Of a stretch of DNA of 64,000 nucleotides, positions 14,182-58,205 are shown one piece after another. Position numbers and translations under genes: made by a program. Numbering within the stretch: the stretch's first letter is position 1; every line of letters starts with the position of its first letter. The notes under the pieces are model-generated. The model was not told the DNA's origin. It worked only from the letters and a program-made list of their open reading frames with translations, and did no database searches. This stretch comes from Nereocystis luetkeana (taxonomy: Eukaryota > Sar > Phaeophyceae > Laminariales > Laminariaceae), in NCBI GenBank assembly GCA_031213475.1, contig JARUPZ010000026.1:4420823-4484822 (forward strand). The letters run 5' to 3'.

Positions 14182-14508
14182 TCAGAAAGCGATATATTGC
14201 AACATTTCTAGCGTAGCAAGTATCTTGGTCACAGCCAGAGTCGCCTCGTAATCTGCTGTTGACAGCATGTGCGCGGTTGGAGACCTTGCTATACCGAATA
14301 TATCGACGAACCTAGTGCTCGCGCTGCTGTCGGCTCGCGCGTCGATGTCGTCCGCAGTACCGTCCCAAGTTGGACGGTCCTCCGCGCTCTGGGTGTTGAC
14401 GTGCTGACCGTCTTGGTGTGACGCGTTCCGTCCGCTATTCTTCTTGTTTGGCCCTAGGAACGTATCCACGGTATCCTCACCGAAAACGTCCAAGCCCATC
14501 ACGGCGCC
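14182..14508 (-). CDS. Exon 26 (terminal), cytoplasmic tail
   Basis: The acceptor reads CTATCTTGGCAG followed by GGCGCCGTGATGGGC in phase 0, continuing to a TGA at 14182-14184. It encodes about 108 residues: GLDVFGEDTVDTF, an Asn/Asp/Ser-rich stretch, then a hydrophobic-charged mix (YEATLAVTKILATLEMLQYI) at the C-terminus. No membrane segment is evident, so I place it inside the cell. It joins exon 25 in frame. It is less characteristic of the family than the other exons. Confidence 0.65.
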   Translation of the reverse strand, partial: GAVMGLDVFGEDTVDTFLGPNKKNSGRNASHQDGQHVNTQSAEDRPTWDGTADDIDARADSSASTRFVDIFGIARSPTAHMLSTADYEATLAVTKILATLEMLQYIAF

Positions 14509-16768: not shown

Positions 16769-16805
<37 letters not shown>

Positions 16806-19800
16806 TATATATATATAAATATATATATATGGTGCAGAGATGAACATTAGGTTCAGATCGATCTCGGGGCATCAATAGAGTGAGGCTTTAGCCACTTCAG
16901 TGCTAACCGAATGGTAGCCTTCGAGGGAGCGAGCCCTCGCCTCGATGATCTCGCGTTACTACCAAAGTCGTTTATTCTGCTCTGGGTAGCAGTTATACTT
17001 GCGCCATGATCACGTATTCGATTAGGCCCAGCACGATGTATTGTCAAGTTATTGTTTCACGTTTCGAGGGGATAAGGTTTTCCAGTAGAAATAGTTGATG
17101 AGCGTACGCAGACACTGTTAGAAGCCAACCCTCGAGACAGTTGCGGATCACGTCGCTACGAGTAATTTCACTATAACCACCGGTAGAAAACGAACCTCAT
17201 AGGGAACAAGTATATCCGATACACAATGGTTGAAGTATAGCAACTGGTCGAAAGTGAACCCAACAAGAAACGAGCTCAGCCGATACGCAATGAAACGGTT
17301 ACCTGCGGCATATATGCTGTAATTGTACCGTACGGTCTCTTCAACACTTCGTACTTATCACGATGCGGATCAACTAGGCAGACATGTTGTGCACGATTTG
17401 CGTAGTAAGTATCCGCTGGAAGAAACAACTACCGGATGGCGCAGGACATGGATGCCCCAATCCACATGATGTTAAGATTTCATAACTCCGGTCACATAAC
17501 CCAGGGAACTATCTGAAAACGTCTGCTGTCTACATGCTATGAAACATGTGCATCGTTTGACATCATATAATGCCCGGTGTGCAATATATTACTTAGTGCA
17601 TCAATCCAACACCGCCAAGGTACCGTGTAACCATACCTGGAATCCCCTCCTGGTGCAAGCCAGCCTCGTCGTAGCCCATGTGTTCCACCAGATTGACAAA
17701 AAGTACAATATGTTGACCAATATCAGCACCACCGAGTATATAGCGCTGCCGGCCGAGTGTTCGTCCGCCACTTCAGCTTTGATCATGAGCGCCAAGAAAT
17801 TGGTGAAGAATATCACCAGACATCCCTTTTTTGGTCACACGAATCCGGAAAACCATTGAAAGAGGCGGCGGAGCAACGGGATTGGTAGAGACACTTGTAG
17901 GGTACACCCTCCCACAAGGGTCAACACATTCGTTAGCAGCAAGTATACCCCGCCGAACCCTTGGGCGGCCTTTTGAGTGGTGTATGACATTCGTCTAAAT
18001 AGTGCGTGTCCTGCAGCTTTGCGAGAAGTTCATCATGCTACGTTCTCCCTGTCGCGTGTGACGGCGACGGCGGGATCTTTAACGTCGCTGGCTTTGCAGC
18101 GCTCCGCGGAGCTTCACACCAAGCGGATCGCCTATAACGCAGTATCATGTATCTTACTCGTGGCGTCGCCAGCTAGCCTCCCGAACTTTACAGCTCCAAT
18201 TTCGCGGCTCCAATTCAGCGAAAAACGAAAACACGATAGAGACTACAGTATCGTAGATACGACAGAAAATGACCCGCATCAACGTTTTGTACAAAGAAGT
18301 GCGGGGGCCTTCAAAGGAGGTTCTGCGATGCATTTAATGCGCTGTACGGTTGTACGCTATTTGTCTCCTTGCCCCAGGATGTACCTCACACCTCACCCAA
18401 ACATAGACGTGGAACCAAAAAACTACCAATCAATACGCGTTACCCGATGAGTATTCACTGTCCTTGGTGTAGGCTAAAATCGATGATATTTTCAAAATAT
18501 CAAATGAGGCGTTTCTGAGGCTCCTCACTTAAGGAGCGCCATTCCTCACCCCGAAACTGACTTCAGCAAATAACAAAATCCATCGCGGTGAAGGAACCCA
18601 TGGCCAAAGTCTACAAAGCGTTTTGTTTTTTTCGAAATTAAGATTGACATTCCGACGATTTCGGATTGGGATCAAGGAATCCCGTCTTTTCAGAAACAAA
18701 ATAGCGGAAATGTGCTACCTCTATCGTAGAACGGGTCAAATCTAGGTTCAAACGGTGCCGGCCTAAACAACCTATCCACGCCCGTCAACAACGTATTGCG
18801 CTGAAACTTGCTACTCATATCGTGACCTATCTCGTGGTAAGGAATCTGGGCTTAGTCGTCTTGATATTTTCGGACCGTTTGGGTTCGTCGAGTGATCAAC
18901 TACCAGTTAGTCTGATAATGTTAGTGTTGCGTTTGTAGTAAGGACCAAGTGCGTACGTAGCTCACGCGAGTGCTGGTCGGCTTGCGCCACCACACTTCTT
19001 CGGAAACATGCTGGGTCTCGGGTTTAGATCTTAGGTTTCATGTAAGGAATACGTCTATTAATATGAGACGAACCCCCCCCTTTGCATTGCTCTCCGTCGC
19101 AATTTGAGACCGTGGCTCGCTTCGCGCATTTTTTCGGCGTGTAACAACTTCGACTGTTGTGCTGTACATACACACAGCTATAAAGATACCAGGGCCGTCG
19201 TAGTCGAATACGTTTCCCCCTATATTTTTGGCGAAATTAGTAATAACTTTGGGAATTCAGCTTTCCTTGTATATCGCCCTCTGTTTAGGTCAATACAGTT
19301 ATATTTTTGTTCCCAAAAATGTATGTTTTTCAACATATATATACGGACCTTCTGGTTCTCCGGCAGTATCGACTCCCACTTTTTTTTCGGTTGCCCCCGA
19401 GAACGGGAGCGCAGCCCTTAAGGGCTTCATACGACTAGTACTCGCATTCCCTTGTTAGCAACGGGAGGGTAATTACACGTGTTTAGATTTTATGCTCGCA
19501 TCATCAGTAGTATGTAGCACATGGCTTTGCATTGAGGACTCCTCCCGTGATAATCGCTAGAACCCCCCCAGCTCTCGTTCTAACTTAATTTACAAGGCTT
19601 AGCCCGATGGATCGCGTGATCGTATGGGCTTGCGAGCAATATGTTCGAATGCACTTTGAAGTAGAAATGTACTTCTAAAGTGCAAATAATAGCTAAGGTA
19701 CCTTGTTTTCCTTTAAAATCCTCCACTACTTCGTGAGGTATATGCGTTAAAAGGTGTCTGCACTATATAACAGATCAAAACTGTGATAGGACGAAAAACA

Positions 19801-22800
19801 TAATGGCAGGCTAGATTGTGAGCGAACCTTACGCCAGTCGTCGGACGTTCAAGCCTATGCCCCGCAAGCAATGGTACACATACATTACGGGGTAGGCGTC
19901 CGGAGCCTTGCGCAAACGTAGTATTAAAATATCAAGTTCCCACGGTTCTGTCATCTCCCGATTAAAACAAGCAGTGGACGCGCACTACTAGAACTGTTTG
20001 TTACGCCCCTGTGTTAACAAGGAACTGCAACTTCGGTCTTCGACTGATGTACATATTTCCAGAGATAGTGGCGTAGCACCCGCCTGTGAGTATGGAGGTG
20101 CCTCCCTATGATACCACCTGGTTTGTCTTAGTACTAATAGCGCAGCAGTATCGTGAGATTGTCGGGATTGATCTGGTCGAGTTCGGGTTCAGGTTCAACT
20201 GTCTACGGTCGTGCAGACGAAATCCCAATTTGTTTTCGTGGCACCAACGGATGACGAATCTTACCGAACCGTAAGCTGGCAACGCGTGTTCGTGGTAACA
20301 GTTGGGGATGAAATATTCGGACGCGTATCCCTTGGAATCCTCCCCACAGTGTGATGCATACGCCAAGAGTATGGTAAACCATTACCATTGATTTGCTCAC
20401 CGTTCGGTAGAGTTGAATTTCCAAGTGGTCGATGTGCGGCCGCTGAAGCTCGAAGGCCAGCAAGCTGCGGGTTTCGATAGGCACGGAGCAAACCAAGACA
20501 TAGCGGCATTGTTTAAGAGCGGAAATACAGAAGCAAACATGCATATATATCACGAGCGGTCGACTGCTGCAACACCGATATTCACCCCCGATAACTACAA
20601 CTACCCCGGTTTTGAGTTTTGAGTAATGTTGCCATTGCAGCCGAAGTGGTATACCGCCATGATTTATACACCGTAATAGGTAAAGGGTTGGGCATTACCT
20701 TGAAACAAAAAAATGGAGATGACCACGTCCGTGCCCGTTTCAGTGGAGGGTCGTGCTTACCAAAAAAATATTTGTCCAGTTACTCCATATTTGTTTTGTT
20801 GAATTCTAAGTGGATACCAGGGATAGATAGCTAATACAAATAGGTGGGCGTTTACCAGTTTCATGGGACCCTGTTGATATTTTGCTAATAATCCAAAATG
20901 TCTGACTTTCATTTTTCAACTTACAAAACACGAGTGGATTTCCCTTCGAAAGCTGTGCCAAGGCGTGGCCGTAATAACACGTATGCGCATCGTTGGCTGA
21001 CGAATGTGAATCAGTGTTTCCCGGAGAAGAGTCGTCGATATAGTCATAGATTCCTTTGATTAAGAAAATAGTTTTTTTTTTACGGTGAGTTCTATCAAGA
21101 AAAAGTGGGGTGCCGATTTGTTTTATCTTTGGAAGAGAGGGTGTAAACAGAGTGATACTTCACATATTCCAAAACTATTCACGAAACATGAAAAAATGGA
21201 CAGTTAACCCCCCTGAACTAGGGAACCTATTGGGGAACTCTGTCCGTATACATCGACATATACCTTAGATTGCGTTCAAGATATGTATGTGTTCTGTCTT
21301 GATCGATGATACAACCCCAAAACATGAAATCACGAAAACAACATGTCGCATTGGTGTAAAAAATAATTTGGAAACGTTTGAAGATGGAAGATAAAAATAA
21401 GAGCGAAACTAAACGGGAATAATACTAGAAAAATTCAAATAAAAACCGCTCCGACATTTATTCACCAGCCGATACCATACTCCAAGCCAAAGATCAGGTG
21501 AGTCGCCCTCCTCACGCTTGGTAGGAGTAAGTTAGTAAAAAAACAAAACAAGATGCTATCGGGAGCTCCCGGGAACCTCGCCCTTCCTCTATGTTTTTCA
21601 AGCGCGGACTCTACCACATCGATCATTTCCGAACAAAAAAAAGCACACGCTTAACGTCCTAGGCGGAAAATCTACTATATCTAATGATCAGCGCTGGTCG
21701 GGTTTCGCTAGACCGTGGAAGCGAAACCAATCGATACTTAGGACGGGAACCGGATTGTTTATTCCGAGGCAAAATAAGTCTACGGAAAATATTGTCTAAT
21801 TGACAGACGAGCGACAACGTAGTAGCGCCAGCTACATTGAGGAGGTCAACCGAGGAGATATGCGGCGTATACTGCTTCCGAGCGAATGAGAGTCGCGAAC
21901 AGACATGCCGCCCACGATTCCACCTTTCCAGATTTTCGTAGAATTCACCTACTACAACAGACGGCGTTACAAAAGCTTGGAAGAAAGAGCAAACCGGGAC
22001 AAGCTGAATACTTTCTCAGAAAATCCCGAACTATACCGACATTTTCTACCGTATGTGTGCTACGGATGCACTGCGGCAGTAGCACGTTCCCTAACCCACA
22101 GTCTTGACAGGACCACTGGTGAAGGTAATACATAGGGCTTGCACCACGAGGGTGGTACATCACTGGCCTGCATTAGAAACGACGGTGACTTTCATCATAC
22201 CTGGCGAACGCAAAGACGCAGCTGAACGCTATCTGCCCCGGCGTGTCCGGGACGAGGAACACCAGCAACCCTGTCAGCACCAAGCGCCTTAGACACTCGA
22301 CCACCTGCCGTGACAAACCGCAGACATCGACGAACCATGGGGACTTAGAAACCGCGTGACACGATGTAGAGTACCAAGCAGCGTCAATGTTAGTGTTGTC
22401 TTGTCCACCCCTGGTTTCCTTGACGTTATTCAGATACATGGCCGTTTTTTGTTCTGGTCGTTCAAGCATACTGACTACCATTTATTTACCTCTCGATAAG
22501 TTCCAAATGTTTGTCGATCGATCACGAGTCCCTTGGTGTGTATAACATATCTTACATTGACCATGTATTTTGTATGCAGCCGTCGTATCTGCGTATTGAT
22601 CCGGTGAACGACAGAAGCTCCAACCGCTTCTTGAACATATCGACTGTGTTGTAGGGTAAAAATACATATTTATTGCGTATTCCCTCCTTTCAAAGCTGTG
22701 AACGTGACAGAACGCCTGAGCCTTGGACACCTGGCCTAAGGTTCCTATACGAACAGATCTAGCTGTAAATAAATACAGCCTTCCATGGCAGATACATTTC

Positions 22801-46800: not shown

Positions 46801-49800
46801 AACGTATTTTCTACGCGGCAATGGCGCTGTGATCCAAGGAGAAACGAAGCAAAACTCTAAACGGCTTGGACAAAATTATCTTTTACTGTTGTAGCGCGGG
46901 GTTGGCAGTGTTGTGTGCCTTGGATTTTACAACCGTATCGTTTGCCAACTCTGTCTACCCGACAACGCGCTTCCTCTGCTACCGATGGCAAAACTATATA
47001 TATGTTAATTCGTGGTGGTGTTGTTGTTGGGGTAATCATATAGGCGAGTGCCTTCTATCTTTGGGTATGAAGAGCACTTGTGCCGATCACGACAGCAGAT
47101 GAACGCGAAGCGCGGGTAACGGCAGGTATCAATATGTCGCAATACATATCATCTGCGACCCCGACGAACGTGGTAGCCTTAGCGTCGTTGCCGCACGATG
47201 TCGTGCGGAAATTTGTTGATCGACCGTCACGTGTCGTATCCACCAACAGGTGGGTGTGTTAGCGGTGTTCGTGTCCCCGAGGAGGAACCGATGAGACCTT
47301 ACCGCGATGCCATATCCCTTTTGTTTGACTGAATATTACTTCCAGGAACATATAGGTTTTCTCCGTTCAATCGTCTGCGTGAATATAACGCTCGGAAGAT
47401 GGCGAAGCATTGTGTGTTCCAGCAACAGAGATGTTACCGTCCATTCTCTGCGTCAACTCGTCCACTAAACCAAGGAGGTATATGATAGGGGTACCACCGG
47501 TTTGGCGCGATCTTCGTATGCCTGACGGTGGGCGTCACTTGAGCAACCCACTCCAACGCTTGGGTATCCCGTTGATGCATTCTAAATCTAAAATATCAAG
47601 TTCCTCAAGCCATCGGATATGTAGCTTATATAGTATTTTAGCGTCTGTTCGTGGGGTTCGGCAAACATCTACTGGAGTGCGGAGATTTAGCCCATGTAGG
47701 AAGTGTATCCTTCCGTGTCACACACATCTTTCCCGGGCCACATGATACAAGTTTCGTCTATATCAGCAGGAAACCGCACATAGGTAGTTTGGAAGGTCTC
47801 ACATGGCAGGTCCAGCTAACGCAGAGTTCTCCCGGAGATCGCAAGCCCAGTCCAGCACCGCGTCTTGGACGGCGTGGATAGCGCCGCCGTCCACGCCTTT
47901 GTTCAGCAGTATCGACGCACCCTCGCACGAGACCGTCCCATCCCCCTCTTTGTGCAGGAATCCTCCGAAATCAGCCTCGTTCGAGCTGAAGTTTCCCCCG
48001 GTTATCTGCACGAGAATGCACCAGCGTTAGCCTTCGAAAGTGTTTGAGGACGGTAAGAAATGCCAAACCGACAGCATCCTGTAAACGGGGTGAAGCGAAA
48101 ATATTGCAGCACCCGCCAGGCGAGGACACGTCAAACGTCAGCCACGTACAACTGTCGAAAGAGACGTTTTTTTATACGGAACGTAACCTGTAAGCGTTTG
48201 TAGATGAAGTTTGGAAAGGAACTACATAAACACCACATATCCGTGGTACTTCTGAATCCCACTGTGCTTCTGTGGTCCCGGCACAAACTGCGTTGTGTTT
48301 AGAAGTGACGAGTTGGCGACGAGACCTGGAATCGCGATGTATTGTAGGCGCGACGGGGAAGATATCAATACACACCCAACATCGAGCAAAATGAGAAAAC
48401 CTGAGAAGAAGGCACAGATGCATAAGCCGTCCCCGAGCGCAACACGTAACCAAAGCTGAAGCCCACTATATGCTATTTCTGCCCTCGACATCCCCCGTGT
48501 ATAAACGTCGGAGGACTAGATCATTGCGTTAACGTAGCTGACAACCTGCGCCGGCTTGACAATTGAAAGGGTGGTGGTCGAACGCGTTGAGGCTCCAGCT
48601 TTGGTTCTTGCATGTTGCTAATTGACTATCCCGAATCACTTCGTGTAGTCTTCCAGACAAGGCCACGGGTCGCTGTAAGGGTTATTTATAAATCAAACCA
48701 ATCATGGGTCAGGGCGTTGGCCCCGTTGCGTCGATGATATCCGTGTGCCTCGTTATCGTCCCCGAGGGATGCTGACACCGTTGACGACAATTCTAGTATA
48801 CCTTTACGGCTCCCCGAATAAACCAGTATGTCAGGTTCTACACAGCATATACCACGGTAAACTGTCCGACGACTTGTTCGATCTGGATTATTAGTAAAAC
48901 AAGTACAGAACAGGTGATACAAGGACAACAATGTCAGCCCCCTACCGGCCTTAATGAAGAGCACGCAGACCCCGCTGCGAATAGATAGGTACTAAACATC
49001 CCCCCAAATATTTCGTCGGTGCTGGACAGCGACAAGGTCATGAGACATTTTTCTAAACCCTTCAACTTCAGTTCGTACTCGTTACGCTTGTGCATCACGC
49101 TGAGACGCTGAACTAAATGTAGTAATATTTCGGTGGGAGAAGGGTTCTCAGGCAACAAAACATTACGTTTCAAGATGTTACCTAGTATATTTATGTCCTG
49201 CAGTTTCGGCGGTTTCGCGTGGTCTGCAGAGTCTCGTTTCCAACCACACTTCAGGCGGACGACCGCACTATGGAGGTGATGATACTGACCTGCACACCGT
49301 CGTTGCGATGAACGACGTAGTTGGGGCAACGCGGATACGGCCACTAGAATGCTTCGATTGATACCCTCTCGACGCCTGTTGCACCTACTGCAAGGCCATT
49401 CGTTTTTTGGTTCGCCCACTCCTCAGAACTCGTCAACAAGTATGTGTACAGCAGCGGCGTGCCAGTGTATATATTGTGATCTCGGTTTTACGACGACGGC
49501 TGGTTTCTTTACAGGGATAATGACGGCAGCTAGTACGGTACCGGCAGTGGTGAAACCCCTCATCGTTTCGCCACGGGTTCGGATCCTCGTGTTCCACACT
49601 TGGTCTTGTTTTGTCACACATGCATCGCCTGCGACCCAACACTCGCGCCTGCACTGGCCGGATGATATTGGCCGTCGACACCTGGTAGAGTGTGACACGT
49701 TCCTTGTGTATATCATATCCAATTCAAGACATCCAGTCTACAAATGTACTACTTCGACGAGAATCCCAACCACCCCTCAGGGCGCCTATGCAAATATCAA

Positions 49801-52800
49801 CAATGGCTGTCCAATCTACAGAGTTGGGACTCCGGCAATCTGAACTCGGGAGTTTTTTCGTGAAACATACGCGCGATATTCTCCCCAAGAATATCTTGTG
49901 GAACCTTTCGACTTATGGTGCACGTGCATATCATTTTGACGAAAGACAACACATTCAGCGTAAAGAAATGTAGCCCATTAAACTAAGGCAGCGAAGTTCC
50001 AGAATCCAGATTGCGGATTATGATAACCGATTACGAACGAAGTTGCAGCCCAACAGTTTGAACGTGTTGGTCGAATACCAAACCCACATGTATGTAACCG
50101 AACGCTAACACTGCACGGACCGAAAAGTTGAAACATGCGTTCTCGCACCTTCAGGTTCCCACCGTCGCTAACCGAAAACACGCCGCCGGTGTTGCTAGCT
50201 TCATTTTTGTAGAACGTGCCGTTTCCCACCGACAGGTTGGATCCGTCGCCCACGTACACAACCCCCCCTTCAATAGCTGAGTTTCTTTCAAACACTCCTC
50301 CAGCCAAGATGGTCGTGCTGTCGTCGCCGGCAATTACCACGCCGCCCTTGTCCGAGGCCTCGTTGTCGACGAACAGTCCACCCAAAATCTCTACTGTGCC
50401 CTTTGTCCACATCACGCCCCCATCCTGTTAATTTGTTGTCCCCAACGGTAGAGGGAGGTTACCGGGCGGGTATAAGCTACATGTCCTGAACCTCTCCGTG
50501 GGGAGGGTAACTGGCAACATATACGATAAAGTTCAGCCGTGATACGCGAGTGCACACACTTGTTGACGGAACGAGAACAAAAGCCATGATCCACAGCAAA
50601 CGTTTGAACATCGCAAGTGCCCGCTATACGTGGGTATATCGTGAAGCACGGTAGCGTTAGCAACTAACGTCTACGAGACTCCTCGCCTCGGGCAGGTGGC
50701 CCATAAATCCCCCCCAACACGCCCAAACGCCACTTTATAAATGTTTGGAAGCTGAAACCCGAGAATATTTCGTTGGCCTATGTAAGTAGATGGCGAACCA
50801 CACAGCCAGACCCAAAGTTGTTCCCAGGATATATGGTGGTCCCTCGGTGTAGAAGTCCCACCTGTGAAATACTCCTCTTAAGGAACCTGGGATCCTTGTC
50901 GTAGCACGCGTTGAACGACAAAAGGGTGCACCGGCAATCTCTAGCCAGGTGACGTGGCAAGTTTTCCAGTAACATGGAAAGCGGTACATCCACGCCGGCA
51001 CGATGGGGCTTTCGCTGAACAAAAAACGGTGCTCACACGTTCGTGAATGTTCTACCATGAGCGCGTATGTGGCGGCATTCCGTCAGCGGATGGCGTGTTT
51101 ATCTCATCGCCGTGACATTTCCGCACTTTCCCCGTCCTGATCCGTCGTCGGCAAGAAAAACCTCGGTAGGTTTGTTTATGCCTCGCATCGTTTGAATCGG
51201 CGACAATATGTATACGACACGATTCGATTTCCCCGGAAGGGGACTATCCGTCCCAAAAGGCAAAAAAGGAAATCTATTATCTGCGAAAAGGCACAACCCC
51301 GTTGCTCGTGGTGTTCACATTTATCAGTACCACTGAAACTTGGGCTGGCACTAACCACTACACAGTAGGCTCGTCTGGAAGACATGTTGTTGCAGTGGCT
51401 GAAACCAGCATCAATCAATGTATACCACAGGTTTAGCCGACCGAAAACAACGACAACCCACCTTATCAGCTGCGTTGTCACTAAACACGCCTCCCTCGAC
51501 GGTGATGTTTGTGTTAGTCGTTCCTCCAAAGACGGCCCCATGAACTCCGCACGTATTACCCTCGAATACGTTACGATCACCTTCCACCAACAAGAACGAG
51601 AACTCTCCAAGGTACACAACCCCTGCGTTGCCCAAATCAGCTTTGTTGGAATCGAAAGTGGAGTTCCTCACGATGAGGGTGGGACCCGGATCCTCTATCC
51701 AGTCCCCTCCGGACGAAAGTGTTATCGCCCCGCCCTATTGAGGTGGCCGTGTTCAATGTTCGAACGGAAAGCAAACACAACGACGAGGACGGTGGTTGGG
51801 TGGCGTCTCTCCGGGTGTATGCGCGGGCTTCATTCCCCTACGGAATCGCGACGACCCTGCTACGTGCGTACGTGCGGGTACTCTAGCGTAGAACACGTCG
51901 GTGCGTATTTGCGAATGTTGGCATGCGACACGTCACCGATTCGAATCGACGTCAGAGTGCGTGCACACGGTCCGAACCGGCAATATGATTCAAAACAATC
52001 GCAATTAATTGTCAGTTTTGGCCACGTGAGTAGTAGGGGTGCAATTTGTTATTGCTGCAGTCAGTTTTCGGGTACGGTGTTGAGCTCTTCAAGTGAGCCT
52101 AAAACACTTTATGGTGAAGATCCATCGTAGAATGCCTCGACATAGCACGTATTTTCAAGTCGTTTGGGGGTTCTCGCAGGGCGTACCATGTACTCATATT
52201 CATGATCTGGGCTGTGTTACCTCGGGAGGGGCAAATGTTCAGCGTCGTCTACGTTACGGCAGATGGCCTTGGTCAGTCAAATTCAACAGTATATGAACCC
52301 TGCACAATTTGTTTCGGTGGCAGGCTAGGGCCTTCATGGTGTTCAGCGTGGTCGGTCCGACATGTCTACTTTTGATAACATCGTGCAAGGCCTACAACGC
52401 TATTGCAAATGTATGTAGTTCGGTGTAGACGTTTGTCCGGGACTTCGAGATTTTTGCAAATCGGGCGGCGCCCGTCCCTTTTCGATACGAAAGGGCAGGC
52501 AACTCGAAATTGACCCGCTTGAGCTTCACGCAGTACACCACGTTAGGTGTGGAGAAAACACCCGGCGTTTATGGAACCTGGTACCATGCGTTCGACAAAT
52601 GCTGCCGTGCATTCAGACCCTGTATAACATCCCCATCCGCCGGCCGTAATATATTTTATCCAAGAACGCACTTACACTCCATCGGCTCACGGCTCCCTTT
52701 TCTAGGGTGATTAGCTGGTATTTGTTTCTGAAATGCAATGATTGACTGAAGGATGTATAAAACCTCGAGTGTAGCAACAAACTGCGTGGCGTCAGTCTTG

Positions 52801-55800
52801 ATTGAAGTGCGACTGATTGTTTAATTGTTTTTTCATCTGTCGAGGTCCGGAGCGGGGCAATGCATCTCATCGAAACCCACATAAGCTCATATAAACGTCA
52901 TCTGAATCAGGTATACACCTAACAAAATTTATATGATAATCCCCACTGACATCCCAACGATACCGCATTTGCCTTAGTGGGTAAGTCCTCGGTTGAGGAG
53001 CACCGAAGTGAAGTCACGCGGTGAGGGGCTACGCCGGTGTTCTCTATCGTGCTTGGGTAACCCAAGCAATTGCCTGTGCCTTCTTCGAAATGGACGTTGA
53101 ATCGATTTAACAGCGCAGCACAACAAACCGCAATCACGTGGGGGCGGAGTTCGCGAAGCTAATAGGTTGAAAGCTGACTTGCACGGTAGCCAATGACGAA
53201 CGTTTACTGGCCAGAGGGGGTTTAACCCTTTGAGAATGGCAGTTCCGGTTTGGGGACAAACCACTTGAATTTGAGTGTTTTTTTCCCCAAAACAGGACTG
53301 CGGTTCTAAAAGGGTAAAGCAGCTGGAGTACGAGGATCTCAACACTTCCGGGCGTACTGTAGCACCGTTCGTTAATATCAGCAATCATTTCGGGTTTGCC
53401 GAAGTGCTCTACCCTATGACGCAACACGTGTCGACCATACCTTGTTTCCGCAATAATTCCCCTTGAGCGTGCAGTCCGACAAGACAAGGGTGATTCCCCT
53501 GCCCACGGAGAACGCTCCACCTTCTCCCTGGGGATCGTCCTCTATTTGACGCCCAGTGGTGCTGTTGGCCACCGTGCAGCGGTGGAATTCCACGTGTGAC
53601 GGTGCGTTCCCGCTACCAATGGCTACCGCGCCCCCCTTTCGCCCCACGTGGCTGTTGGCGATAATGGTGTCGGTCACCTCGCAGCTTGATTGACCATCAA
53701 ATGAGAGCGCGCACGTGGTGAAGGACAAGGCTGCACCTTCACCTATCTCGGTTTCTGTTCGCGTGACAATGTTCGGGATTCGCGCGAGTTTCACGTGCGG
53801 ACGAACGTAAGTGTGTAGTAGCTCGCACATGTCGTACGTGTTCTTCTTGCGAGACAACCCAGTGTTGTGTTGGAGCGCGTGGGGGCTCCGGTGTGAGCGG
53901 TAGGAAGACCGGACAGCGCCTTCCCTACAATAAGTTTCTCTACAGGTGAAATCAGTTTTGATAGGGCGGGTATCGTATACTGTGCTCGATGGCGGTGACA
54001 TTGTGGCGACGTTGAGGGATGATCAGGTATACGCAGACCATATTTCGGAAGGGCCAGCGCTTGTTCCTCCCGCGATATTCCCCTTACATGACTCGTTGGA
54101 AAAAAGAGTGCGTGAACGGCGGGCGGGCGGGCGAGTGACAAACAATGTGATATACCATATAATATAGAAACAGTGTTGTGCCTCGTACGTTAACGTTGAT
54201 ATGATGAGGGTGCGCACAGACGGACACAACGAAACTATATACTTATACAAAGATCGATAAATAAGAATGGTAGACACTCGGCCTAGAGGCCCATCGGCGC
54301 TGAAGACTTTGACATGGGGATCTCAACGACATCACCGACGCTATTCCTCTATCGTCGCCACATAGTCTACAAGCACGGTGGAACACCCAGAAGCGTGTAA
54401 CGATAGCCACAGGGTGTTGTGGGTCAACCGTACTGTATCTGACAGGGCTCCCTGTCCCATAATCGATGAAATTTCAATATAATGTATCTGTTACTAATTC
54501 TCATACACCCAAGCGATGGGATTGTTGTTCGTGTTCCGCGTTTTGCTTCTCATAAAATCACGTTTTTTTGGTGAAGTTGTTGAGCTTCCGGACAACACGC
54601 ACGTGGTATATATCTTAACCGTACCAAACATGCGTCTCCACGTCTTTCAACGGCAATGCCTCACCGTCCTCAACGTTGTCGCTCCCCGCAATATTATTGT
54701 TAAACACCGACCCGAGCACGGAAGTCTGTCCGATCCCCATATGCACACCGCCTCCTTTCTTGCTTGAGTAGCACTCTTCGAACAGACACCCATCGATGAA
54801 GATGTTGGTATATTCGGCCTGTCGATCGGCGTTGGCCGTGGTCGGGGAACAGGTTGGAAGGGATCACGGGACATGATGGGGATTGTTGCCAAGGAGTGAT
54901 CGGCCCTACCCGGTTACTCCATCACTGCCCCATGGTCGAATGGATAAATTTCATTTGTACGGAAATATAGAACATGTAAATGAGGACATACATGCGCTTT
55001 GAAACCTATGGGGCAAAATCAACATTTCCGGAGCAGGCCCAAGTCACCCTCGTTCTTTGGTTGTTCGTTCGAAGAAAAAAACAAATGCTTGCGGAGTGGA
55101 CAAAGCAAACCAACTAGGGAACCACGGAGGAGTTGACCTTTATTCCAGTCGGGGTGTGCTGGCTTGTTTCAACGTCCCTTTTTCTTTCACCAGGGTCATC
55201 ATCTCCCAATAATGCTATATGCTAAGGACTGACACCTGCTGCCACAAAGGTATCGCGTATAATCAGACACATCACGAAGCCCGCCTAGGCCGTGGAATGG
55301 GAAGTAACCCGCTCTCATCCGTTTGTGCTGCTCAATGGTGTTCGTTAGCTACCTCTCGGGGATGGGATCGTTCAGTGGCTCAGTCTTCGAAGACGGTGTG
55401 TTTTCCGGACAAACAGATTTACATGGAGTGCATAGATCTCTTCTACCGTGAGGCACGAGGAACCACAGTGGTGCTAGTGTGCACCTCAAAGTCGCAAGCA
55501 GGTATCGGTCGACACACAATTTTACGAGACAACCCCTAACGAGCCATCGTAAAACCTAGCATCAGCGTTCGACCAGTTTCCGGGTTGTACTGGTTGATGG
55601 CCTGCGTCGGTGAGGAATCGTCGTGCGGAAGAGTACGGCGCTACCGCCAGCACGGTTTTGGATATCATTATAATTCAGTCTGGGTAAGTATTGGTCACCG
55701 GGACCGGGTCCTCAGCCATACAGCTCGTCGGAGAAAGGAAGCCCACCATCACGGTTTACATCCAAACCCGCTGAGTTGTGTGACATAGTCGGGGGAGAAA

Positions 55801-57899
55801 ACTTCTCCTTACTTTAGGCTTTTCACGTTTAGAGCTGTACACGTCATCACCAAAAAAAATATATAACAACGTAAAACACGATTATCAACTCTGACGCCTG
55901 GGCATGTCACCAATACCTATGCTCTCTAAGCCACAACTGTTTTGCAACGACGTTCACCCCACGAGCGGGCGTGGGTCATTATGGTTTGCCCGCCCAGCAC
56001 TCCAGTAAAACGTGTCTGGGTGGAGTAGTAGCACCCCCCTAACTCTTCCTCAACAAAGGTGCATTAGTCGGTAAACAAAAAACCAATACTACTGTCGAGG
56101 AAACTGAATCAGGGTTATTCACCGTGGATCTCGCACAGAGTTGATGAAAAACGAGTGAAACTTCGATCACGCTTCCCTTCGCGCAGGCCGACAGTAGTTT
56201 CCCTTTTTTTTGTTGGGGTATCTCTCTACCGAATATATAAGGATATTTGTGTCAAGCTTCCTGATATTTGCCGTCTCTAACCAAACGCAAACCGCACGCT
56301 CTCGTTCGTGATCGGCCCCTTCGTTTGAAATGGATTTTGTCCTGGACTCATTTCACTGAGTTACGAGCACGGCACGGTTACGGGATGAGTATGAATAGAC
56401 GGGATTTATCCAGTTCGCGACGACCACAAGACTAAATTGATAAACTCGGACGCCTCCGAGTACATTGACACGTCGTGAAGGCCAAGATACAAAGACGAAG
56501 AACAAGCGTTCTAAACGGAAAGAAGGTGACTCCTGTGATAGCGGATTACGACTCTAGCAATGGCTGCGTCGGAACGCATGAGCCGGCCTTCGCCGGACCC
56601 AAATACACACTCAGGGACTAGAACACGCTGATCGAAACCAGTGCAATGGCGGTGTTCGAGTATAAAACGACGACAGCCACGACGTAGAGAGTAAATCAAT
56701 TTATGGGCCCCAACATATCGACGACGCAGTTTTTACATTGGTTTCTCAATGGTTGACGATACGAATAGACGCCCAGCAGTACGGGTAAGGCCAATGTGCG
56801 TTCGCACCGTTTTGCTCCTTGTACTTTTCAATCAGACACCGAGTTGGGTGTCATTTTCCCATCATGGGGAGGGTGTTCCTCATTCCATCGCCTTCTATAT
56901 TCGACGTTTCTACTCCAAACCCCAAAGGCGATTAAACCCTGACGCTGTACTCACCCCAATGCCACCGCCTGCGCCATCCGGATTGTCATCATCAGCCTTT
57001 GATTGGAATCCCGCTCGGCAACGCCTGAACACCGAGTCGATAATGACGAGGTTTGACTGGTTGGCAAACACACCACCGCCGTAATACTCGGCGAAGTTGT
57101 CCTCGAACTCACAGTTCGTCGCAGTAACGTTAGAGTTTAGCGCATTGACACCGCCCCCATTGACGGTAGTGCTGAAAGTTGAGTTGTCTACGAATCCGCC
57201 GCGGACGGCCATGTTTTCAAGGATCAGCTCTCCGCCGTCAACATGAAAAATTGGCCCGAAGGCGAAACCCTCGTCGGTGTTTGCCGATGTTCCTGGCAAT
57301 CCAACACCCACGGCGGCCGACGAAAGTCCCCGTGGAATCGAGAGGTCTGCGGTCAGGCTATCGACCTCCTCGTAGGTGATCGAGCCGATGCTGCTTCCCG
57401 TGAGGCTACTTGTGCCCTCTGTGATTGAGGCGGGATCTGATGGCGTATATGAGCTTACCTCGCCGACAATTTTCACTGTTGTTCCTGAGCCAATGAGGAT
57501 CGTTCCGGATACATTAACAGCACCTGACCAGGCGACCTCAAAGTCTCCGTCCTCGCAGTTAAAAATGCTGGTGAGGTCTAGATCGGTGTCAGGCGTGATA
57601 CTCACACCAATCACCCCTGCTGCTCCTCCCGCACTCCCTTCTGCGGTTGTCTCGGCTATGCACGGTGCAGCAGAAACACCAAACCCAAGTCCCATCATAC
57701 GCGCTCCAGCATCGACAATGGACGACACCGATGCCACCGCGACGATGAAACCGAAGACTGTCTGGATAGTCCGTGAAAAATTGCGTTCGTGACGACCGCA
57801 GTCGGCTGACCCAACCCTCGTTTCTCCATGGAGGGTACGCATCGAACCCAATCGGGGATGTCGGTGCCGCTGATATGGTACCTGGTCTGGGTCAGTCAT
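14182..57899 (-). CDS. Large multi-exon Pmp beta-helix / Cys-rich / multi-pass membrane protein
   Basis: This is a surface protein gene of about 2,230 codons in 26 exons (exon 7 provisional), pieced together here from splice sites and family motifs. The intron phases match at every junction, so the gene looks intact. In order: N-terminal hydrophobic anchor (about residues 44-65); beta-helix repeats of the GG[AV]...F..N.A type (about 230-820); DGVPWAGT and GDLGVYC segment; Ser/Asn-rich linker (about 920-1010); PSSGLLLPGES; Cys-rich GCC2_GCC3-like stalk with TLPVEEGYWR and GY-GP-CAVC; then a membrane domain from about 1275 with eight or nine hydrophobic segments. It includes ARHTTM, YLRADRRIEC, YPLGIP, PTSFLW-YYPNRYYYE and FFTNFLALMI blocks. 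This layout is known to me from stramenopile Pmp-repeat membrane proteins of unknown role; receptor, adhesin or channel are guesses. About 85 percent of the 43.7 kb span is intron. A decayed partial copy lies downstream. Confidence 0.8.
16770..16830. repeat. TA dinucleotide array in intron 25
   Basis: About 60 bp of alternating TA, interrupted twice by an extra A. It lies in the 3.1 kb intron between exons 25 and 26, which otherwise shows nothing recognisable. Confidence 0.95.
17637..17825 (-). CDS. Exon 25, last two membrane helices
   Basis: 189 nt, phase 0 to 0. It encodes CLVIFFTNFLALMIKAEV, a helix ending in a family-typical FLALMIK, then DEHSAGSAIYS and a second helix (VVLILVNILYFLSIWW). 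The donor is CAG/GTATGG. The acceptor AAAAG/GGATG has a weak pyrimidine tract, so the first few residues are less certain. Confidence 0.8.
18490..18735 (-). mobile_element. MITE-like element, copy 2, in intron 24
   Basis: Inverted relative to copy 1. It begins with GAGGCGTTTCTGAGGCTCC and ends CTACCTCTATCGTAGAACGG, sharing the GAAACTGACTTCAGCAAA core with the other inverted copies. The left terminus looks partly lost. It is non-coding. Confidence 0.75.
20401..20464 (-). CDS. Exon 24, FELQRPHID loop
   Basis: 64 nt. Joined to the AG at the end of exon 23, it gives SLLAFELQRPHIDHLEIQ then LYRT. This matches the family's FEL.RPH.D.W....YR block between membrane helices. The donor is ACG/GTGAGC and the acceptor CCCGCAG. 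Only the expected frame (2 to 0) keeps the protein open. Confidence 0.85.
22201..22304 (-). CDS. Exon 23, helix pair LTGLLVFLVP / IAFSCVFAFA
   Basis: 104 nt, acceptor CACGGCAG and donor CCAG/GTATGA. It encodes VVECLRRLVLTGLLVFLVP followed by DTPGQIAFSCVFAFA, two hydrophobic segments split by a short DTPGQ turn. The preceding exon ends in YYYE, so the junction restores the family's YYEVVEC motif. A decayed copy of this exon lies at 6522-6627. Confidence 0.9.
23349..23441 (-). CDS. Exon 22, PTSFLW / YYPNRYYYE block
   Basis: 93 nt, phase 0 to 0. The acceptor is GTTTTGTCTGGCAG and the donor GAG/GTACAC. It encodes REKIKQRSNDVGIAPTSFLW, then SAYYPNRYYYE. This is a conserved cytosolic loop before the VVEC helix. 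A decayed copy is at 7468-7560. Confidence 0.9.
23520..23760 (-). repeat. Imperfect tandem duplication in intron 21
   Basis: Two units of about 110-120 bp each end in a block like CGACTACGGCCGTGCCTGATATCGAC or its diverged form, and share AATCCC(C)GA and a GTCTGxCxGG tract. The units are about 70-75 percent alike by eye. They lie 80-320 bp upstream of exon 22. The upper unit includes an exon-like piece (AG/GCGGTAAATCC and a GTACGTG donor), but using it is not needed to keep the frame. Confidence 0.5.
24919..24968. repeat. CAA trinucleotide microsatellite in intron 21
   Basis: About 50 bp of CAA/ACA repeats with a few interruptions. It is flanked by other low-complexity sequence; a run of about 14 G lies at 24209-24222 in the same intron. 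The open frames across it (poly-Thr on plus, poly-Val on minus) are repeat artefacts. Confidence 0.9.
27057..27169 (-). CDS. Exon 21, YPLGIP helix
   Basis: 113 nt. The last T of exon 20 plus AT gives Tyr, so the join reads IFL-YPLGIPAAFLFLLSSK, the family's YP.GIP block at the end of a membrane helix. It continues SSINPPTDVTLKEQ. The acceptor is GCGCCCAG and the donor ATG/GTGAGC. The phase (1 to 0) matches both neighbours exactly, which supports the assignment strongly. Confidence 0.88.
28443..28685 (-). mobile_element. MITE-like element, copy 3, in intron 20
   Basis: 243 bp with clear inverted termini: GGCGTTCTACGATAG at the left and CTATCGTAGAATGCGCC at the right. The interior has GAGGCTCCTCACCTACGGAG, CCCAAAACGGACTTCAGCAAA and TGTTACCTCTATCGTAG. 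No coding capacity and no obvious target-site duplication. This is the best copy for defining the inverted orientation. Confidence 0.85.
28819..28951 (-). CDS. Exon 20, VFQTF / YLRADRRIEC block
   Basis: 133 nt, acceptor CATGCCCTGCAG and donor CTCT/GTGAGT. It encodes VFQTFSCENF, then YLRADRRIECDTTTHMAF and RTYAAFMIFL. This is the family's extracellular loop with two conserved Cys (C...YLRADY.I.C) followed by the start of a membrane helix completed by exon 21. Confidence 0.92.
30526..30609 (-). CDS. Exon 19, ARHTTM membrane helix
   Basis: 84 nt, phase 0 to 0. The acceptor is GGTTTTCAG and the donor GTG/GTGAG. It encodes DRLRELFARHTTMTLILLYL then IYSQVSTV, which runs on into VFQTF of exon 20. 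A paralogous pseudo-exon at 8501-8586 keeps the same splice sites. Confidence 0.9.
31012..31696 (-). CDS. Exon 18, membrane helix plus long disordered loop
   Basis: 685 nt. It opens with MVTIGPLVVLGILGITFHVG, a clear membrane helix, and then about 205 residues rich in Ser, Gln, Arg, His and Gly with no predicted fold (for example SSRSESGLRR, HHQPAGREQQ). It ends at GAG CAG/GTACGA. The CT left by exon 17 plus A completes a Leu codon. The loop is an expansion compared with the short connector I would expect here, and should face the cytosol. Confidence 0.85.
32099..32243 (-). CDS. Exon 17, YPPIYEKFL / FNLDL segment
   Basis: 145 nt. It encodes KYSNITNVAYPPIYEKFLSI then IGVFNLDLAWILSAACLTTN. This matches the family's block (FPP.F..F....FNLDL followed by a conserved Cys). 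The donor is CT/GTGAGC. The acceptor CCCTCGAG is weak and chosen because G/CG keeps frame with the unusual donor of exon 16, so a few residues or a micro-exon at this junction could be missing. Confidence 0.82.
33362..33367 (-). other. GC donor site of intron 16
   Basis: On the minus strand the exon ends GTCATAG and the intron starts GCAAGC. A GC donor in an otherwise consensus context is the only reading that ends the family's LSKLKIVI block before a stop codon and stays in frame with exon 17. Confidence 0.6.
33368..34214 (-). CDS. Exon 16, disordered cytosolic loop between helices 1 and 2
   Basis: 847 nt, the largest internal exon. It starts VGGRGAVSSTVANTKESVRV, which joins exon 15's LVVYL to give the family's VGG.AV.STV segment. 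About 230 residues of Ser/Arg/Gly/Thr/Glu-rich, poorly conserved sequence follow, with no fold. It ends in ILAGLPLSKLKIVI, a recognisable start of the next membrane segment. The acceptor is GTCATCAG. The loop is long and could hold regulatory or phosphorylation sites, but none can be named. Confidence 0.85.
34845..35060 (-). mobile_element. MITE-like element, copy 4, in intron 15
   Basis: Inverted orientation. It shares CCGAGGCTGTTCACC, GAGCTCCGTACCTCA, GACCCCGTCATTCAGAAGAC and the right end CTTCTATCGTAGAATGAG with the other copies. It lacks a clean left terminus. Confidence 0.75.
35300..35345 (+). mobile_element. Possible MITE-like fragment, copy 5
   Basis: About 45 bp containing TATGGAGCTCCTTAAAAGGA, like the GTATGGAGCTCCTTAAGTGAG core of copy 1. 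The termini are absent. It could be chance or a short relic. Confidence 0.35.
35638..35786 (-). CDS. Exon 15, end of Cys-rich stalk and first membrane helix
   Basis: 149 nt. With the G from exon 14 it reads ECAVCTSGYGRGVATECHRC, then TPGFKAG and the helix MYFAIAIASFCSLVVMTLLV. Four Cys in a C..C...C..C pattern close the extracellular stalk. The acceptor is AATATTCAG and the donor CTG/GTGAGC. A second GTAAGC donor lies 11 nt downstream, but the first keeps the frame. Confidence 0.92.
36826..36895 (-). CDS. Exon 14, short Cys-rich exon
   Basis: 70 nt. It encodes AACKGGSAVASVQEYCDLGY then KGP. The C.GG...YC..GY.GP-C pattern is typical of this family's stalk. The acceptor is CGTGCAG and the donor CCCG/GTAAGT, a perfect consensus. 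The phase (0 to 1) matches exon 15. Confidence 0.92.
37755..37862 (-). CDS. Exon 13, TLPVEEGYWR module
   Basis: 108 nt, phase 0 to 0. It encodes GVVCDDPGATIRTLPVEEGY then WRAALDSVFIRECSTE. It matches the family block C...G.T..TLP...GY(W/Y)R....+.C. The acceptor is ATGTACAG and the donor GAG/GTAGAC. Confidence 0.9.
39395..39839 (-). CDS. Exon 12, start of Cys-rich stalk
   Basis: 445 nt. It opens SITLRVVTLPSVFFDG, completing PGES with exon 11. It continues through a Ser/Thr-rich region with several N-glycosylation sequons (NSSS, NVTSS, NVTF) to GQVWNPDSFSLDSGS and EGCQLC. The acceptor is TGCCCGCAG. Two in-frame donors fit the 3' end: GTGCGC after QGETE (used here) or GTACAAG 18 nt earlier. Both join exon 13 in frame. 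Confidence 0.82.
40973..41434 (-). CDS. Exon 11, Ser/Asn-rich linker domain
   Basis: About 462 nt. It encodes CVAGDAATLDIASKRVPGIT then FFPEMLEGDLILSLG, a likely beta-sandwich edge. A long Ser/Asp/Asn low-complexity stretch (SNVNSNIRNSSNNVNHSNSS) follows, then EWTVFPSSGLLLPGE, a family-typical end. The donor is GAAAG/GTGGGG. The acceptor is ambiguous by 2 nt (41434 or 41436); 41434 keeps frame with exon 10. Confidence 0.8.
43025..43247 (-). CDS. Exon 10, DGVPWAGT / GDLGVYC segment
   Basis: 223 nt. It encodes YVALAEGGSSSGTFPTADSL, NITCRDGVPWAGT and CSNGSACLEGDLGVYCPC. The Cys pattern (C..GS.C..GDLGVYC) is characteristic of the region after the beta-helix. The acceptor is CACGTGACAG. The donor CG/GTCATC is weak but is the only one that joins exon 11 in frame while keeping the Cys-rich motif. 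Confidence 0.75.
43418..43663 (+). mobile_element. MITE-like element, copy 6, in intron 9
   Basis: 246 bp and the best direct copy. The termini are GCGCTCTACGATAGAGG at the left and TATCGTAGAACGCCTC at the right, an inverted repeat of about 13 bp with one mismatch. The interior has GACGGGGTTTCATAACCC and GAGCTCCCGAAGTGAGGAG. No open frame and no clear target-site duplication. It lies in the 581 bp intron between exons 9 and 10, filling nearly half of it. Confidence 0.85.
43829..43961 (-). CDS. Exon 9, beta-helix coils
   Basis: 133 nt. It encodes AVVFSEGQLFLDDCDFSGST, then AGQLVYAKQQSTVMIRNT and VLGDNN, typical beta-helix rungs. The acceptor is GATTTCAG and the donor AACT/GTGAGTGA. It joins exon 10 through a split Tyr codon. 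Confidence 0.88.
44746..44853 (-). CDS. Exon 8, beta-helix coil
   Basis: 108 nt, phase 0 to 0. It encodes VNFKDTKESSDLSAVQV, then DAGSTYLAEDTSFEGFDGE. The acceptor is CTGGACGCAG. The donor GAG/GTTGGT is weak; a nearby GTAAAC donor would break frame with exon 9. Confidence 0.75.
45506..45548 (-). CDS. Provisional exon 7 (43 nt)
   Basis: Exon 6 ends in phase 2 and exon 8 starts in phase 0, so a linking exon should exist in the intervening 2.9 kb. This piece has an acceptor GGGATGCAG and a donor GAG/GTAACTG with the required phases, and encodes CRMPVWWEGRFNVE. The peptide is not clearly beta-helix-like, so another small exon could be the true one. Confidence 0.3.
47803..48005 (-). CDS. Exon 6, beta-helix coils
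   Basis: 203 nt. It encodes ITGGNFSSNEADFGGFLH, EGDGTVSCEGASILLNKG and VDGGAIHAVQDAVLDWACD. The repeated GG[AF], N.A and small-residue turns are typical Pmp rungs. The acceptor is TCGTGCAG and the donor CCAT/GTGAGA. Confidence 0.9.
50149..50424 (-). CDS. Exon 5, beta-helix coils
   Basis: 276 nt, phase 0 to 0, with clear Pmp-type rungs: DGGVMWTKGTVEILGGLF, DNEASDKGGVVIAG, FERNSAIEGGVVYVGDGSN and YKNEASNTGGVFSVSD. The acceptor is AATTAACAG and the donor AAG/GTGCGA. Its length and phase nearly equal those of exon 4. Confidence 0.93.
51462..51734 (-). CDS. Exon 4, beta-helix coils
   Basis: 273 nt, phase 0 to 0. It encodes GGAITLSSGGDW, PTLIVRNSTFDSNKADLGN, VFEGNTCGVHGAVFGG and ITVEGGVFSDNAADK. 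It uses acceptor CTCAATAG and donor AAG/GTGGGT. A 248-codon open frame overlaps on the plus strand but has no motif and no composition signal. Confidence 0.92.
52038..52138 (+). mobile_element. MITE-like element, copy 7 (right half), in intron 3
   Basis: About 100 bp that matches the right half of copy 6: GCAATTTGTTATTGCTG, GAGCTCTTCAAGTGAG and CATCGTAGAATGCCTC. The left half is missing or too diverged to see. Confidence 0.65.
53441..53754 (-). CDS. Exon 3, beta-helix coils
   Basis: 314 nt. It encodes TEIGEGAALSFTTCALSF, IIANSHVGRKGGAVAIGSG, VEFHRCTVANSTTG and GEGGAFSVGRGITLVLSDCT. Pmp-type GGA and C.V.N motifs are regular. The donor is AAG/GTATGG. The acceptor GCGAACAG has a poor pyrimidine tract but the phase matches exon 2. 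Confidence 0.9.
54665..54818 (-). CDS. Exon 2, beta-helix coils
   Basis: 154 nt. It encodes EYTNIFIDGCLFEECYSSKK, then GGGVHMGIGQTSVLGSVFNN, the same rung pattern as the rest of the ectodomain. The acceptor is ATCGACAG and the donor GACG/GTGAGG. The start phase fits exon 1. Confidence 0.88.
56955..57899 (-). CDS. Exon 1, N-terminus with membrane anchor and first beta-helix coils
   Basis: 945 nt (315 codons). The first ATG in the open frame is at 57899; the next is at 57842 and is also possible. A basic N-terminus (HRHPR, GRHERNFSR) precedes the hydrophobic stretch TVFGFIVAVASVSSIVDAG, which is either a long signal sequence or a signal anchor. A Gly/Ser/Thr-rich region (about 80-230) follows, then the first beta-helix rungs: NGGGVNALNSNVTATNCEF and YYGGGVFANQSNLVIIDSVF. 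The donor is GGG/GTGAGT. No promoter element is recognisable upstream. Confidence 0.88.
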
Positions 57900-58205
57900 C
57901 GTCGGCTACTTGGAGCGCTACAGACAGCGCGCGTGTAGGCGAATTGTCCTGAAACCAAGCACTGGTGAGTTGCCCTGAAACCAAGCTCTGGTGTCGTCGA
58001 GGATGACGGGAGTTTGATTGCAACCCCGTTACACCCTGACGTCCGGCCACAGAACTTTGTTTTGTTTGCCTTGATAGTCATAAACGAGGGAGAGAGACGT
58101 TAACCGACAGCGAGGAGTGCGAAAGGTCACGGGGGAGCGGGGATGTGGGTGCTGCTGATATAGTGCTTGGTCTGGGCTAATTATCGTCGGCTACTCGGAG
58201 CGCTG
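57858..58205. repeat. Duplicated segment around the start codon
   Basis: About 70 bp at 57858-57915, covering the start codon of the large gene, recurs at about 58138-58205 with some 80 percent identity. Both share GCTGATAT, CTTGGTCTGGG or CCTGGTCTGGG, and ATCGTCGGCTAC. The upstream copy has lost the ATG (the minus strand reads GATAATTAGCCC where the gene reads GATGACTGACCC). Between them, about 25 bp (TGCCCTGAAACCAAGCTCTGG) is tandemly repeated near 57944-57993. Confidence 0.75.

Follow-up and report, generated by a model that had tools for sequence, protein, structure and literature searches.

Background

Little is known of how the cells of brown algae recognise partners, neighbours or pathogens at their surface. 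The chlamydial Pmp proteins, with which relatives of the present gene product share a repeat type, end in an autotransporter barrel. A kelp unigene is annotated as a 'polymorphic outer membrane protein' in the accessible part of its source. The ROCO proteins are candidate immune receptors of brown algae; the available portion of the report on them describes a multi-exon family with a proposed function in recognition, and claims that their exons are shuffled (PMC11378527).

We analysed a window of 64,000 nucleotides from Nereocystis luetkeana (C26:4,420,823-4,484,822, where C26 is the contig that carries the window). The gene in this window is called W throughout, and its two closely compared paralogues on the same contig are called A and B.

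Results

Gene model

Minus-strand open frames from a first-pass annotation of the window were used as queries against the 465-Mb assembly (1,987 contigs), and three exon-sized queries led to copies on C26 and on other contigs. A and B were then compared with the window by translated alignment. At each junction, we chose donor and acceptor sites with equal phase and a matching offset in W, A and B; a few junctions were settled by reading the alignments or the DNA. Exon labels run from e1 to e12 and from e15 to e29, the numbers e13 and e14 being skipped (Table 1).

The joined model of W lies on the minus strand and has 27 exons; it opens with an ATG at 57,899, and 14,182 is the final base of its stop codon. 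These ends are exactly those given by the first-pass annotation. The same annotation had proposed one spliced open frame, which our model reproduces, but its 26 exons and roughly 2,230 residues need correction: the coding sequence has 6,795 bases including the stop, which corresponds to 2,264 residues, and contains no internal stop.

All 26 junctions are compatible in phase, as had also been claimed. Since junctions were picked by equal phase in W, A and B, this agreement is partly built in. The presence of GT or GC and AG sites at matching offsets is not built in, nor are the stop-free joined frames in all three copies. The introns of W comprise 24 of the GT-AG type and two of the GC-AG type, with AG at every one of the 26 acceptors. 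The GC donors follow e10 (43,009) and e18 (33,368). The latter is GC in W and A and GT in B; the former, which is unusual, is GT in both A and B. The start ATG occupies the same place in the three copies, and an in-frame stop occurs just upstream of it in W and A. A 74-base direct repeat (57,853-57,926 and 58,138-58,211, 84% identical) was also observed here, and its first copy spans the start codon.

Table 1. Coding exons of W in window coordinates. Basis: aln, translated alignment, phase-matched junctions and joined model; read, reading of alignment or DNA and joined model.
Exon	Coordinates	Strand	Content	Basis
e1	56955..57899	-	start codon (same ATG in A, B); N-terminal hydrophobic segment (residues 41-71); first part of ectodomain	
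e2	54665..54818	-	beta-helix	aln
e3	53441..53754	-	beta-helix	aln
e4	51462..51734	-	beta-helix	aln
e5	50149..50424	-	beta-helix; fastest-evolving of three diagnostic exons; Chlam_PMP below cut-off	
e6	47803..48005	-	beta-helix	aln
e7	46268..46379	-	beta-helix	aln
e8	44746..44853	-	beta-helix	aln
e9	43829..43961	-	end of beta-helix	aln
e10	43009..43247	-	stalk with Cys cluster; GC donor (GT in A, B)	read
e11	40973..41436	-	stalk; Ser/Asn-rich insertion absent from A, B	read
e12	39395..39839	-	stalk; Ser/Thr-rich insertion absent from A, B	read
e15 (13th)	37755..37862	-	Cys-rich region containing GYWR	aln
e16 (14th)	36826..36895	-	Cys-rich region	aln
e17 (15th)	35638..35786	-	end of Cys-rich region; first strong hydrophobic segment	aln
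e18 (16th)	33368..34214	-	long variable loop; GC donor in W and A, GT in B	read
e19 (17th)	32819..32841	-	micro-exon, 23 bases	read
e20 (18th)	32099..32238	-	hydrophobic segment	aln
e21 (19th)	31012..31696	-	hydrophobic segment; second variable loop	read
e22 (20th)	30526..30609	-	hydrophobic segment	aln
e23 (21st)	28819..28951	-		aln
e24 (22nd)	27057..27169	-	hydrophobic segment	aln
e25 (23rd)	23349..23441	-		aln
e26 (24th)	22201..22304	-	hydrophobic segment; 85.7-91.4% identical to B and A	aln
e27 (25th)	20401..20464	-		aln
e28 (26th)	17637..17825	-	two hydrophobic segments	aln
e29 (27th)	14182..14508	-	C-terminal tail; 14,307 to 14,182 uncertain	

Paralogues with the same exons

The paralogue A (C26, about 4.375-4.419 Mb, plus strand) encodes 2,049 amino acids and B (about 3.68-3.72 Mb, minus strand) encodes 2,064, each in one open frame of 27 exons. 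All three modelled copies have the same 27 coding exons, the same 26 phases and the same order, and conserved blocks in the translated alignment are collinear with both A and B from about 57.9 kb down to 14.3 kb of the window. When only sense-strand tblastx pieces of at least 45 bits within the gene span are counted, which leaves out weaker pieces, many of them off exons, 66 of the 72 pieces shared with A and 60 of the 61 shared with B lie on exons. These pieces touch 26 of the 27 exons in A and 25 of 27 in B. The six pieces that miss the exons in A are out of collinear order and resemble a dispersed repeat.

The single off-exon piece in B is a block at 38,215-38,060, in the intron between e12 and e15. 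It is collinear in A and B, is 48% and 37% alike as protein, respectively, and fits no exon of the model; it may be either a cassette exon or a conserved non-coding element.

We noticed several repeats around these genes. A dispersed repeat, about 250 bases long, recurs at 13,455-13,684, 18,512-18,737, 28,443-28,683, 34,826-35,066 and 43,417-43,663, in introns and in the flank. This repeat is also present in A, and its end at 35,000-35,066 matches many sites in the genome. Degenerate tandem repeats at 60,156-61,254, partly with a 102-base unit, leave long open frames on the plus strand. The downstream flank of A and that of W show inverted matches (2,344-2,528 with 4,953-4,773, about 71%; 2,898-2,975 with 4,423-4,350, about 78%). 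W and A are arranged tail to tail, and their 3′ flanks have apparently been duplicated.

Extent of the gene

The first-pass annotation had described a single gene and named a split near 36-35 kb as the outcome that would contradict it. Two neighbouring genes, one for the ectodomain and one for a membrane protein, would account for the long intron at this border, for the lack of a single frame across it in W alone and for the fact that the e16/e17 junction is not read through in any relative. However, in the relative L027 on contig C3, a single open frame of 476 codons covers the end of the Cys-rich region, the first membrane segment and the membrane block after it, from e17 to the start of the e21 equivalent (of 423 aligned positions, 116 are identical; E = 7e-33, calculated without composition correction; the intervening loop is poorly alike). 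Moreover, in-phase GT and AG sites are present at the e17/e18 junction in all three copies, and the exon chain is collinear across 36-35 kb in both A and B. We therefore rejected a division at 35-36 kb, which we regard as extremely improbable, and W is almost certainly a real, single gene. Its 3′ end is less clear. The similarity of W to A and B stops within e29 near 14,308, at an AG|GT common to all three copies, as would be expected if coding continued into one or more further exons and the bases from 14,307 to 14,182 were intron. Yet A and B remain alike past the AG|GT, up to near their own stops, and the blocks that they share further downstream hold stops in matching frames, so no further long 3′ coding exon was found there. 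We consider such a continuation somewhat unlikely; the alternatives are a frame that reaches 14,182, as in our model, and a short final exon further on.

Intron numbers in relatives

At 15 of its 26 junctions, W has an intron where one or more relatives outside C26 read straight through, although those within the beta-helix are weak because of repeats, and L040 is linked to the family by its beta-helix alone. This tally takes only L022, L027, L028, L038, L039, L040 and L064 (contigs C3, C8 and C22), and omits matches to C26 copies that run on into introns or lose register within repeats, with which it would be 16 of 26. The junctions not bridged are the first three, e16/e17, the five from e21/e22 to e25/e26, e27/e28 and e28/e29. 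In the C8 copy, e12-e16, e19-e21 and e25-e27 are each fused; this copy has one stop in its match to e7-e9 and another in its match to e12-e16 (with A as the query). W, A and B thus have many more introns than their relatives on C3, C8 and C22. In an unrooted tree of six rows, the C8 copy falls between those of C26 and C3, and the contrast may reflect either gain in the C26 cluster or loss elsewhere.

Copies across the genome

At least eight copies on C26 carry the three diagnostic exons, e5, e17 and e28, collinearly; besides W, A and B, these are five copies at about 4.60-4.62, 4.77-4.79, 4.83-4.81, 4.87-4.90 and 4.94-4.97 Mb, which were checked for these three exons only. Two incomplete loci on C26 (4.735/4.723 Mb and 4.644 Mb) and the contig C376 were left out of this set. 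C376 scores equal to A in two exon searches and nearly equal in the third.

A genome search with e17 gave 31 matches: nine on C26, 14 on C3 and eight on eight other contigs, some of which are probably duplicate haplotypes. On C3, 13 of the 14 matches lie between 15.79 and 16.82 Mb, a cluster of about 1.03 Mb. Stops occur in seven of the 31 matches (one on C26 at 4.78 Mb, four on C3, one on C8 and one on C20; copy D is included); either some members of the family are in decay, or the match extends into an intron. In the copy at 4.78 Mb, the stop lies in the e17 match, yet the stretch limited to the exon is open, and we counted this copy as open.

Some further observations concern the family and its surroundings. 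On the minus strand at 8,589-6,288 of the window, there is a degenerate family fragment with pieces like e22, e25 and e26 that are 54-73% identical to A; including introns, its DNA is about 65-68% identical to A. The C3 relative L063:1411-3135 has a C-terminal tail in a long open frame with imperfect repeats of the type SEDxxPTYERATGGLxAPPS, unlike the tail of W. The EsV-1-7 repeat family (PF19114) exceeded its cut-off at all 150 sites scored from 1,713 candidates, the rest being left unscored, and in none of 14 control genomes. In the accessible part of a published account, this family is described as expanded in brown algae and patchy in other eukaryotes (PMC7457493). We take these matches to point to a brown alga as the most likely host.

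Selection on the reading frame

Pairwise dN/dS (Nei-Gojobori) is 0.355 between W and A (2,045 codons, 55.9% identity), 0.368 between W and B (2,054 codons, 53.0%) and 0.39 between A and B (2,036 codons, 61.7%). These figures are rough, since the dS of W to A and B is near 1 (about 0.94-0.99) and hence close to saturation. The values differ along the protein. From the ectodomain to the Cys-rich region they are 0.30-0.39 (e1-e9), 0.35-0.50 (e10-e12) and 0.22-0.30 (e15-e17); in the membrane part they are 0.12-0.13 (e19-e20) and 0.14 (e22-e28); in the loops and tail they are 0.59-0.67 (e18), 0.59-0.82 (e21) and 0.32-0.63 (e29). The exons of W are constrained coding exons, with purifying selection on the frame.

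The eight C26 copies agree with this result, which upholds the earlier suggestion of selection on the frame: e5, e17 and e28 are free of stops in all 24 exon stretches. Over 28 pairs, pN/pS averages 0.60 for e5, 0.46 for e17 and 0.25 for e28, with a maximum of 0.76. By this crude measure, no pair exceeds 1 in any of the three exons, and so positive selection was not detected among them. The ectodomain exon e5 is merely less constrained than the membrane exon e28.

Protein layout and domain searches

Read from its N-terminus, the W protein has a hydrophobic segment, a beta-helix-like ectodomain, a Cys-rich region and nine or ten further hydrophobic segments with two variable loops, in agreement with the layout first proposed, as far as sequence and hydropathy reveal it. 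The N-terminal hydrophobic stretch (residues 41-71 in W) is also present in A, and in B falls under the hydropathy threshold used. By the same measure, the later hydrophobic segments start at residue 1,304, and the long loops of e18 and e21 lie between them. W, A and B have 35 Cys in common, and 33 columns of the Cys-rich stretch are invariant across five copies. If the ectodomain is outside, ten crossings would put the tail outside and nine would put it inside.

A Pfam search with the whole W protein gave no family at an E value of 1 or better. The description of the ectodomain as Pmp-like holds for relatives of W, but W itself stays below the 20.6-bit cut-off of Chlam_PMP (PF02415), with 15.6 bits for the e5 frame and 10.3 for the ectodomain. 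By comparison, the A ectodomain reaches 38.5 bits, and two of five frames from other relatives also exceed the cut-off, namely L038 on C3 (44.7 bits) and L040 on C22 (127.6 bits); the other three frames gave no Pfam family above cut-off. A PF02415 profile search of the raw genome DNA found no match, while one of 14 control genomes matched. We take this miss to mean that an exon-wise search overlooks short repeats. The Beta_helix family (PF13229) reaches 21.8 bits in the exon-1 frame of W, below its cut-off of 25.9. A fold prediction from the single sequence of 244 residues of exon 1 has a mean pLDDT of 33.6, too low to be of use. In the PDB, the ectodomain and Cys-rich parts have no trusted match, and phage records yielded no relative of the Cys-rich part of A.

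The membrane domain had been said to be of unknown function, and this description stands: Pfam holds no match to the multi-pass part, and the PDB none that is credible. A 363-residue query joined from pieces of W and A found nothing in the PDB with phmmer at an E value of 10, and the sole match of an e22-e28 profile was ectodysplasin-A (E = 0.77), which we take as chance. Pattern searches for relatives of the membrane part, with two short peptides each, gave 17 matches in IMG/VR and 51 in GTDB, none of which was confirmed. That the domain is eukaryotic, as also proposed, is suggested by these two weak scans, neither of which produced a viral or prokaryotic relative.

Discussion

Proposed function and its alternatives

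Our preferred reading, held with some reserve, is that W encodes an adhesin or a recognition receptor of the plasma membrane. Its family is expanded, and several members lie on C26. One gene, transcribed from right to left, would yield a protein of about 2,260 residues from 27 coding exons. Its N-terminal hydrophobic segment would direct the protein to the secretory pathway, residues 100-839 or so, the beta-helix-like ectodomain, would form a rigid rod outside the cell, and the Cys-rich region would be the neck linking this rod to the membrane. The nine or ten hydrophobic segments would serve as an anchor, and the variable Ser-rich loops and the tail, if they face the cytosol, are likely regulated parts. 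The beta-helix may bind a cell-wall polysaccharide or a partner surface, and the multi-pass part, besides anchoring, could possibly relay a signal. Judged from sequence features, a location at the surface is probable, the case for a role in binding or recognition is evenly balanced, and signalling is doubtful.

More speculatively, the C26 and C3 clusters could constitute a repertoire of polymorphic recognition receptors in brown algae (for self/non-self, gamete or pathogen recognition), in which a beta-helix sensor rod of the bacterial Pmp type is joined to a lineage-specific multi-pass transducer. This idea draws on the faster change of e5 than of e28 between copies, and we think it unlikely to be correct as stated.

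The main functional rival of the adhesin or receptor is a membrane-tethered enzyme that modifies cell-wall polysaccharides, its beta-helix being catalytic and not a binding rod. Pectate lyases and alginate epimerases have right-handed beta-helix folds, and alginate is a product of brown algae; together with the sub-threshold Beta_helix match in exon 1, this gives the enzyme some appeal. Yet the ectodomains of A and W match no Pfam enzyme family at an E value of 5 or better, Chlam_PMP being the only family matched, and we regard an enzyme as rather improbable. It is also conceivable that W is a decaying copy whose frame has survived by chance or youth, given its GC donor after e10 in place of the GT of A and B, the two low-complexity insertions in e11 and e12, and the degenerate family fragment nearby at 8.6-6.3 kb. 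Youth is hard to reconcile with a dS of about 0.94-0.99, which indicates an old copy, yet all 2,264 codons are free of stops. The dN/dS of 0.36-0.37 to A and B likewise argues against decay, although this constraint could partly stem from A and B. We regard a pseudogene as very improbable.

The analysis provides a checked model for a large, easily missed gene of a putative surface protein from an expanded brown-algal family. This family is a natural candidate set for cell-surface recognition in brown algae. Given an exon model and diagnostic exons, and an ectodomain exon that changes faster than a slow membrane exon, the receptor idea becomes testable. The strong differences in intron number among relatives also make the family a case for studying intron gain and loss.

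Comparison with known systems

We found no description of this architecture in the open-access literature, which gave a single brown-algal annotation. That annotation, of the kelp unigene mentioned above, can be likened to W by name alone, and the name is what we would expect an annotation to give for a brown-algal protein with Chlam_PMP repeats. Weak matches below cut-off to JAMP (PF05571), TMEM9 (PF05434) and DUF7630 (PF24633) occur in the Cys-rich-plus-membrane stretch of some family members. For JAMP, the Cys-rich stretch of A scores 16.9 bits against a cut-off of 25, and the Cys-rich stretch of W itself matches none of the three.

The similarity to chlamydial Pmp proteins consists of PF02415 repeats, which are above cut-off in the relatives A, L038 and L040. 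By contrast, the C-terminal half of W contains nine or ten helix-length hydrophobic segments and has no Pfam match, and the Pfam scan of the whole W protein contains no autotransporter beta-barrel. With the ROCO receptors, as presented in the accessible portion of the report, W shares membership in a brown-algal multi-exon family proposed for recognition; the domains are different, and the set of 27 exons is constant among W, A and B, whereas shuffling is claimed for ROCO (PMC11378527). We file W as a well-supported new member of an annotated but little-studied kind of protein, rather than as a new kind.
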